Program-made: the position numbers and the translations under genes
In this document: one piece after another, positions 3,766 through 5,948 of the stretch
Layout of the letters: every line of letters begins with the position of its first letter
How positions within the stretch are numbered: the first letter of the stretch is position 1
Origin: Persicirhabdus sediminis
Lineage (GTDB): Bacteria; Verrucomicrobiota; Verrucomicrobiia; Verrucomicrobiales; Akkermansiaceae
Length of the DNA stretch: 40,631 nucleotides
Direction of reading: 5' to 3'
Assembly: GCF_016595495.1 (NCBI RefSeq)
Contig: NZ_JAENIM010000029.1
Span: 1-40,631 of the forward strand
Notes under the pieces: model-generated
The model's input: the letters and a program-made list of their open reading frames with translations, nothing else
Database searches by the model: none
Told to the model about the DNA's origin: nothing

Positions 3766-4275
3766 ATGAAAACAATCCATACAATCATTGCGGCAAGCAT
3801 CGCCATGAGCCTTGCTTCATGCGAGAAAGCAGCTGACGAAGCCAACAAAAAGGCCGAAGAAGCAAAAGCGGAAATGGCAGCCGCCACTGAAAAAGCAGCC
3901 GAAGCAGCCAAAGAATCTGCGGGTGAAATCACTGAAGGCAGCAAAAAGGTAGCTAACGAAGTCGTTGAAGAGACAGAAAAAGCCGTCGACGCTACGACCG
4001 AAGCTGCATCTGACGCCATGGACGCCACCAAAGAAGCCGCATCTGACGCCATGGACACTACCAAAGAAGCTGCTAGTGATGCCGCTGACGCCGCTACAGA
4101 AGCAGCCGCCGACGCTACTGAGTCAGTAGAAGAAGCTGCTAGTGACGCAGCTGACAGCGCTCAGGAAGCCGCTGACGACGCCATGGAAGGTGCTGAAAAA
4201 GCAGCTGACGATGCTGCAGACAAAGCACAAGATGCGATGGACGACGCAAAAAATTCATTACCATCAGCTCCATAG
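3766..4275 (+). CDS. Ala/Glu/Asp-rich repetitive lipoprotein, 169 aa
   Basis: The protein starts MKTIHTIIAASIAMSLASC, a lipoprotein signal peptide with lipobox LASC (Cys19), so the mature protein should be lipid-anchored in the envelope. The start at 3766 was chosen because the signal peptide begins there; a longer in-frame extension to 3718 has no such logic. The rest is almost entirely Ala, Glu, Asp, Lys and Thr in imperfect heptad/undecad-like repeats (EAASDAMDATK, EAASDAMDTTK, EAASDAADAATE). This predicts a long amphipathic, acidic helix or coiled coil like LEA-type or Lpp-like spacer proteins. No catalytic domain is visible. A strong terminator follows, so it is probably a single-gene transcript. 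Function unknown; a structural or stress role is an inference. Confidence 0.85.
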   Translation: MKTIHTIIAASIAMSLASCEKAADEANKKAEEAKAEMAAATEKAAEAAKESAGEITEGSKKVANEVVEETEKAVDATTEAASDAMDATKEAASDAMDTTKEAASDAADAATEAAADATESVEEAASDAADSAQEAADDAMEGAEKAADDAADKAQDAMDDAKNSLPSAP

Positions 4276-4314
4276 TTCTAGCTGACTGATCAAAGATAAT
4301 CATTCCATGCATTA

Positions 4315-4347
4315 AAATCCGGCCGCTATCCGCGGTCGGATTTTTTT
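4315..4347 (+). terminator. Rho-independent terminator after the Ala-rich lipoprotein
   Basis: AATCCGGCCGC pairs with GCGGTCGGATT (one mismatch) around a TATC loop and is followed by a run of T. Confidence 0.9.
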
Positions 4348-4401
4348 ACGCAACCTTGCAAGCTAGGTGAGCCGTGCTTAGTGTTGGCCAGAAAGTAAAT
4401 T

Positions 4402-5454
4402 ATGGACAGAGAAGAAATCATCAAGCTAACAAGCATGGCATCCTGTGGTGGATGAGCGTCCAAGCTCGACCCTGCGTCACTGGTGCAAGTTTTGCATCAA
4501 CTACCACAACACAACGATGATAGATTGCTAGTTGGCTCAGCTACCGCTGACGACGCTGGTGTATTCAAAATCGACGATCAGCGCGCGCTTGTGCAGACCT
4601 TAGATTTCTTCACCCCTATCGTCGACGACCCGTATTTGTTTGGCAAAATCGCGGCGGCGAATTCGCTCTCTGACGTCTACGCCATGGGTGGCAGACCGAT
4701 TACGGCGATGGCTATTGCCGGCATGCCCGACGATTTGCTAGACAATGAGACCATTCGCGAAATTTTGCGAGGAGGAGCCGAAATGGTCATGCAAGCAAAG
4801 GCCAGCTTAGTTGGTGGCCATACAATTAAAAATCCAGAGCCGATTTACGGTCTATCAGTCACCGGCATCGTTCACCCAGACAATGTGCTAGCCAATGCTA
4901 ACGCTGAAGCTGGCGAACTCATCATTCTTACTAAACCACTCGGCACAGGCATTCTATCAACTGCCATCAAAAGAGGCCTGTGCGATGCCGAGTTAGAGCT
5001 CAAAGCATCTGAGATCATGATCCACCTGAATACAGTGGGCGCCTATCTAGCTGAAAAAGGTCTGGTAAAAGCCTGCACGGACATCACAGGATTTGGCCTC
5101 GCTGGTCACTTGATAGAAATGGCTGACGCCAGCGGCACCACTGCCATTTTAGACAGCTCGGTCATTCCAGCTATCTCACCGGAGGTGATAGAGTTCATCG
5201 AACAAGGTTGCGTCCCAGGCGGCACGAAAAAGAACCTGCTCAACGCCGAAACCAAAATCAGCTTTGGTGAACACATCAGCGAATCACTCAAACTGCTGCT
5301 GGCTGATGCACAAACATCTGGCGGACTTATGCTCTCTGTACCAGCTGTTCACGCGGAAGAGGTACTCGCCCACCTCCATCAAGAAGCGACTCCGTGCGCC
5401 GTGGTCATCGGCAAAATGGTAGCGCGCGCGCAACACAGCATCATCGTCGAATAA
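4402..5454 (+). CDS. selD: Selenophosphate synthase with in-frame UGA (selenocysteine) at position 18
   Basis: Makes selenophosphate from selenide and ATP, the selenium donor for Sec-tRNA and for selenouridine in tRNA. Reading from ATG 4402 gives MDREEIIKLTSMASCGG, then TGA at 4453-4455, then ASKLDPASL, followed by an open frame to 5454; total 350 codons including the UGA, the normal SelD length. In E. coli SelD catalytic Cys17 is followed three residues later by Lys20; here UGA18 is followed three residues later by Lys21, so the UGA falls exactly on the catalytic Cys. Downstream motifs are typical: SATADDAGVF (ATP/Mg binding), DFFTPIVDDPYLFGKIAAAN, SDVYAMGG, and a later DITGFGLAGHLIEM. Sec-containing SelD proteins are known in several bacteria, so readthrough is the best explanation rather than a nonsense mutation. 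A start after the UGA would lose the catalytic loop. No strong Shine-Dalgarno was seen. selA, selB and selC must be elsewhere. Confidence 0.93.
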
Positions 5455-5518
5455 TCTATCGATTAGACTCTAATCAGCCAGCCTAGGAGAAAATTCCAGC
5501 TGGCTGGAAATTTCTAAC

Positions 5519-5553
5519 TACCGCATCAGCCCAGCGCTGTGCGGTAATTTTTT
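5519..5553 (+). terminator. Rho-independent terminator after selD
   Basis: TACCGCA pairs with TGCGGTA, with an inner CAGC/GCTG stem, followed by a run of six T. Confidence 0.85.
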
Positions 5554-5948
5554 GTCCACCTATCGCGGATAGTTTCCATCTAGCTAGGCCATCGTGCGAG
5601 GTGATCTAGCAAAACCTAGCTAGAATAACTCACTGATCCATTCGGCAAGTTAGATATTTTCTGACCCTTATCAGGAAAAATAAAAACTCTGAGAATGATG
5701 ACGACGATGCCCATTTTCAGCCGATTTGACGAATTCGGACTAGAGTCAGACGCGTGCTATCAATCTCTGCGTTTATGGGGGAAAATCATCCTTGCCAGAG
5801 GAATGACTAGTCCGTAATCAAGCTAAGAAATCAGTAATACACGCGTATTACTGAATCCATATTCTAGCTAGCCCAATGCCATACTCCCACGATGGCAATC
5901 ACCAGCTAGCAAGCTCACAATCAATTCATACCACTAACTACCATCCCT
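5554..5948. other. Intergenic stretch between selD and the MFS gene
   Basis: No gene was recognised. The stretch 5575-5635 is remarkable for five CTAG sites in about 55 bases (TCTAGCTAGG, ATCTAGC, CCTAGCTAGA). An inverted repeat AATACACGCGTATT lies near 5835. The MFS promoter presumably lies in the last 150 bases, but no clear boxes could be chosen. Confidence 0.5.

Follow-up and report, generated by a model that had tools for sequence, protein, structure and literature searches.

The window, that is, the whole 40,631-nt stretch of Persicirhabdus sediminis contig NZ_JAENIM010000029.1, carries a selD gene with one in-frame TGA (Table 1). Translated from ATG 4402, the gene meets this single TGA at codon 18 and then stays open for 332 codons up to a TAA; retranslation of 4402–5454 reproduces what the first-pass annotation had described, and the in-frame UGA is confirmed as real. 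The 350-residue reading reaches 376.6 bits with the selD profile TIGR00476 (cutoff 125; residues 8–315), which places it in the family, and it aligns with E. coli SelD (PDB 3u0o) over residues 4–327 (E 5e-78). U18 falls on Cys17 and K21 on Lys20, the correspondence that had been proposed from the spacing of the UGA and Lys21. The E. coli enzyme differs in having Cys at the catalytic position and Gly three residues before it.

Table 1. Features of the selD locus and the second UGA-containing gene of the genome
Feature	Position	Strand	Basis
selD, selenophosphate synthetase, 350 aa, one in-frame UGA predicted to be read through	4402..5454	+	Translation, TIGR00476, E. coli SelD alignment
UGA codon 18, predicted Sec at the catalytic position, CGGUASK (Cys15-x-x-Sec18, Sec18-x-x-Lys21)	4453..4455	+	Alignment to E. 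coli Cys17, TGA in the family
Predicted bacterial SECIS hairpin: stem 4481–4488/4492–4499, apical loop GUU 4489–4491	4481..4499	+	Fold, covariation, synonymous-codon controls
Hairpin of the first-pass annotation, rejected as SECIS	4473..4487	+	Present here; 41.7% of cells paired
Terminator-like hairpin and T run, upstream of selD	4328..4341	+	Consensus match only
Thioredoxin-like UGA gene, 233 residues	C9:143214-143915 (L071:1174-1875; TGA L071:1573-1575)		PF00578 search, internal TGA

Under the standard code, the ORF list starts selD at GTG 4483 (4483–5454, 323 aa) and so drops the active site, as had been anticipated for automated annotation. Ordinary ORF calling would in this way lead to a misreading of the selenium metabolism of the clade. 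The listed ORF is what would be expected if only the short protein were made and the upstream part were untranslated, but relatives conserve the N-terminal part at the protein level (pattern T-x-x-x-[SA]-C-x-G-U-A-S-K in most rows), and it aligns with the N terminus of the E. coli enzyme. The short product would also be without residue 18, which we take to be catalytic, and without Lys21 three residues on, which we presume to be functional, and GTG 4483 falls within the conserved stem described below. We consider production of the short form alone highly improbable.

The rest of the genome (4.17 Mb in 47 contigs, 96.66% complete, the window being one contig) holds the machinery expected of a selenocysteine user. 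A profile search finds selA at 504 bits and selB at 264.2 bits, the latter rising to 277.7 bits for a 637-aa ORF (cutoff 242.25) that contains the SelB beta-barrel and winged-helix domains. The genome's tRNA-Sec, whose anticodon is UCA, scores a modest 51.8 bits against a gathering score of 47, with a model that also matched tRNA-Ser genes in the same genome. The full Sec system inferred in the first-pass annotation is thus represented by all three components. That annotation had named two observations that would speak against its reading, the absence of selB or selC and a second intact Cys-type selD; selB (over its cutoff) and the tRNA-Sec (UCA) are both there, and the three AIRS-domain genes of this 96.66% complete genome are the window SelD, ThiL and PurM, with no second SelD or Cys-type backup among them.

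The TGA is widely conserved. Seven named relatives (uncultured Rubritalea, Akkermansiaceae or Verrucomicrobiales MAGs, 61–65% identity), which would place the genome in their part of Verrucomicrobiota, all carry TGA at the same codon in frames that are otherwise open. Across 260 genomes of the same bacterial family, SelD is matched in 74, three of the matches stopping short of residue 18; the codon is TGA in 64 of the 71 informative genomes and Cys in the other 7. Chance or sequencing error is excluded by this retention in 7/7 named relatives and 64/71 family genomes. Comparison of 68 distinct TGA-type with 28 Cys-type SelD proteins shows what is typical of a bacterial selenoprotein, an in-frame UGA at a catalytic position that is Cys in homologues. 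In a wider sample of 387 genomes from the phylum, SelD is matched in 32, with a TGA row in six, of which G410, G457 and G311 do not belong to the family. Loci L078, L099 and L101 gave no SelD motif row; a separate reading of L078 displays a Cys-type motif.

The distribution of the TGA follows that of SelB, which is matched (E <= 1e-60) in 69 of the 260 family genomes: in 58 of the 64 with TGA-SelD versus none of the 7 with Cys-SelD. The six TGA-SelD genomes with no SelB match are 84% (G177), 86% (G195), 93% (G213), 58% (G215), 80% (G221) and 88% (G227) complete, and G177, G213 and G221 have a tRNA-Sec match above cutoff; family matches to this model, many of them 84–86-nt rows near the cutoff that resemble tRNA-Ser, were kept out of the counts. 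Conversely, 11 SelB genomes yield no readable TGA-SelD, three having only a fragment that lacks the N terminus and eight (G099, G180, G190, G200, G209, G223, G236 and G242) being without any SelD match at the thresholds applied. These eight may be incomplete assemblies or may use another selenium donor.

Stop codons of the 23 ORFs taken as genes in the window (1–40631) are TAA in 13, TAG in 8 and TGA in 2, so that TGA is rare. Few genes stopping at TGA (2/23) would fit a UGA read as some other amino acid, whether the codon is generally reassigned to Trp or readthrough is leaky. Against this, a 1247-residue PutA-like protein (below family cutoffs) has TGA as its stop, and TGG codons abound (143 in the same window ORFs); the selD UGA also stands at the catalytic Cys position, in a genome with SelA, SelB and tRNA-Sec, and tracks SelB through the family. 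Decoding as an amino acid other than Sec is accordingly given a very small chance.

Downstream of the UGA, both the minimum-energy and the centroid fold of 4453–4505 place an 8-bp stem closed by a GUU loop, 33 nt after the UGA. An alignment of 20 rows shows pairing in 95% of the cells of this stem, and five of the eight pairs have changed on both sides, counts that take no account of shared ancestry; pairing is kept by compensatory change. None of 500 shuffles matches the observed pairing, both-side changes or covariation score (0.401 versus 0.193 shuffled), two match the number of pair types, and sliding the partner strand by 1–3 columns lowers pairing to 21–64%.

We also compared the hairpin with codon-level controls. 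These drew on 74 rows, 63 of them unique and 60 used, which include the seven named relatives where they are not duplicates; L025 and L049 (spurious motif, minus strand), L153 (an N) and duplicates were dropped, and the distant TGA-SelDs from outside the family (L076, L094 and L096) were excluded from pair counts. Pairing across the 60 unique sequences reaches 96.4% in the cells of the inner seven pairs, versus a mean of 61.7% (highest 67.6%) after synonymous-codon resampling. Shuffling codons for the same residue within the same column gives a mean of 87.8% (highest 90.2%), and 0 of 1000 shuffles attain the observed value. All seven inner pairs are present in 45 of the 60; the other 15 miss at least one, and seven of these 15 show C-A in one pair. 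In one pair, the Ser/Thr/Ala codon ahead of Gln contributes its first base, and the Arg codon that follows contributes its third, which is mostly silent. This pair covaries (TCG/CGA, ACG/CGT, GCG/CGC) and is standard in 57/60 rows. The loop is GUU, GUC or GUG in every one of the 60. The corresponding stretch in 28 Cys-type SelD rows is 46.9% paired, and its local energy has a median of −3.05 kcal/mol, versus −9.15 kcal/mol in TGA-type SelD.

In its 8-bp stem, its 3-nt loop of G followed by U and its 33-nt distance from the UGA, the hairpin resembles the bacterial SECIS consensus model, which calls for a 4–16-bp upper stem, a 3–9-nt loop with G in the first two positions, 16–37 nt from the UGA and a free energy of at most −7.5 kcal/mol (PMC13188914, in excerpt). 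It departs from the model as excerpted in that the bare 19-nt stem-loop reaches −7.1 kcal/mol, marginally short of the limit; with flanks the energy is lower (−9.8 for 38 nt, −15.9 for 53 nt). As a single sequence the window hairpin is of unexceptional stability (z −1.64; 13 of 200 shuffles as good), and single-sequence folding energy lends weak support to either hairpin. The evidence from the alignments supports 4481–4499 as the predicted SECIS.

The first-pass annotation had instead put its SECIS-like hairpin at 4473–4487. This structure overlaps the supported stem, is not conserved (no compensatory changes in the 20-row alignment) and is replaced by 4481–4499. It also scored as terminator-like, one of three such sites in 4200–5650 versus 1.4 expected by chance. 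The terminator-like hairpin upstream of selD is perhaps the terminator of the preceding gene, and no promoter-like site was found in 4200–5650.

The same covariation bears on the idea that selD is a decayed or mis-sequenced Cys-type gene in which a Cys codon has turned into the nonsense codon TGA: TGA is one base from TGC and TGT, but 64 family genomes and 7/7 named relatives share the TGA in otherwise open frames, no second SelD was found in the genome and the hairpin covaries. We regard this idea as the least probable reading of all.

We therefore favor, with a probability of about 0.97, the reading that selD encodes a selenophosphate synthetase with Sec as its catalytic residue, predicted to be inserted by SelB and the hairpin 4481–4499. 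Its basis is the open frame, the family assignment, the E. coli alignment, the machinery, the conserved UGA, the covarying hairpin and the co-occurrence with SelB, and on these grounds the earlier view of this SelD as a selenoprotein is supported at the level of sequence. SelB carrying Sec-tRNA(Sec) would recognize the predicted hairpin 33 nt downstream, and Sec would be put in at the UGA, as established knowledge of SelA–SelD suggests. The full-length SelD would then convert selenide and ATP to selenophosphate, by the catalysis established for such enzymes, and selenophosphate would be the selenium donor with which SelA makes Sec-tRNA(Sec). Because selenophosphate would feed this synthesis, SelD would be required for its own production. 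A Sec-SelD with no Cys-SelD found thus poses a bootstrapping question, that of an enzyme needed to make itself.

Among 96 SelD proteins placed in a tree, 68 with Sec and 28 with Cys, there are at least five switches between the Sec and Cys states on supported branches. The Sec-SelDs of the family and the named relatives split into one group of 25 rows and another of 40; deep placement in the tree is unsure owing to several long branches. The 40-row group adjoins three class-level relatives that alternate Cys, Sec, Cys, and a long branch leads to the 13-row Cys group that holds the seven Cys-SelDs of the family. The class-level proteins L076 (Sec), L077 and L075 (both Cys) are closely related, with TGA and Cys alternating among them. 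By eye, the Cys gene L077 retains part of the hairpin sequence, and perhaps changed from Sec to Cys recently.

The first-pass annotation had also expected further selenoproteins, and at least one candidate is found. We searched the genome with PF00578, PF00384 and PF10262. One of the 11 rows from PF00578 has an internal TGA; PF00384 gave four rows, none with TGA, and PF10262 (SelW-like) gave no match. The UGA-containing gene encodes a thioredoxin-like protein with the motif S-A-S-W-U-G-P-C-K, an N terminus that resembles a signal peptide by eye, a PF13905 domain (43.9 bits) and an SHD1 match of 20.9 bits, below the cutoff of 23.7. It is likely a second selenoprotein.

A thioredoxin-like gene is matched in 127 of the 260 family genomes. 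Among the matches listed, which cover 115 of these 127 genomes, TGA rows occur in 64 genomes, 61 of which have SelB. In the other 51 genomes every listed row lacks TGA, and none of these genomes has SelB; nine of the genes from them (L203–L211) were read and have Cys. For eight SelB genomes, the matches listed include no TGA thioredoxin row. Several SelB-bearing genomes have two to four thioredoxin-like matches, some of them adjacent.

The thioredoxin UGA set comprises 64 rows, 58 of them unique, after removal of L104 (another gene, on the minus strand) and of motif matches that lack TGA; L117, L120, L189, L190, L192, L194 and L197 gave no motif row. A hairpin follows the UGA here too, with the loop AGUU[AGU] in 56 of the 58 sequences and AGGUU in two, and in those 56 rows the GUU begins 26 nt after the UGA. 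Its cells are 88.5% paired, versus 61.0% after synonymous resampling and 84.3% (highest 86.5%) after same-column shuffling, and nine Cys-type thioredoxin genes are 51.9% paired at this place. All six pairs are present together in 20/58 rows, a count reached by the same-column shuffle (mean 17.5, highest 24), and the evidence for this hairpin is therefore weaker than for that of selD. When the SelD and thioredoxin UGA regions are aligned jointly, their GUU loops lie one column out of register.

Sec-SelD as such is already a known selenoprotein, and the finding is ordinary in kind. Sec-containing SelD with a UxxK motif is among the experimentally verified selenoproteins (PMC13188914, in excerpt), and prokaryotic Sec-SelD genes possess bacterial SECIS elements (PMC4561486, in excerpt). 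The present gene is like these in family (TIGR00476), catalytic UGA, UxxK and a predicted SECIS after the UGA, and would not differ in mechanism. The difference is one of frequency: of the 65 TGA SelD rows of the family read for motifs, 64 have CxxU, versus approximately 5.6% of the single-domain Sec-SelDs in a 2008 marine survey (PMC2398784, in excerpt). In its W-U-G-P-C motif the second UGA gene is like the thioredoxin-like UxxC selenoproteins (PF00085, PF00578, PF13098; PMC13188914, in excerpt), and it is unlike them in its N-terminal extension, its sub-threshold SHD1 match and PF13905 as its best domain; PF13905 and SHD1 are absent from the main text of that source. Among the titles listed from the open-licence literature, none indicates a study devoted to Verrucomicrobiota selenoproteins, and the single paper listed for Rubritalea with selenocysteine has an unrelated title. 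What is added here is the correct SECIS with strong evidence, CxxU as a rule of the clade and a co-distributed family of thioredoxin-like UGA genes.

Taken together, these observations lead us to lean, at somewhat better than even odds, towards a small Sec economy in this Verrucomicrobiota clade. It would consist of a CxxU Sec-SelD and an undescribed, clade-expanded set of SHD1-like/thioredoxin selenoproteins that carry W-U-[GP]-P-C, are probably secreted and are often present as several copies. These two unrelated genes would have come to resemble each other in their hairpins, in which a GUU loop starts 33 nt (SelD) and 26 nt (thioredoxin) downstream of the UGA. Members that lack SelB would have a Cys-type SelD or none, and thioredoxins with no UGA. 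This reading is made slightly less likely by the thioredoxin hairpin, whose full-stem control is weaker, and by the uncertain joins of the SelD tree. The 60 unique SelD and 58 unique thioredoxin UGA regions provide a covariation-backed picture of bacterial SECIS elements outside model organisms, and the GUU loop common to both gene sets can be tested against SelB. In the relative G240, locus L104 holds another thioredoxin-like W-U-G-P-C frame on the minus strand, at position 1050 once the locus is reversed, near an SHD1-like gene, hinting at further selenoprotein families in the clade.
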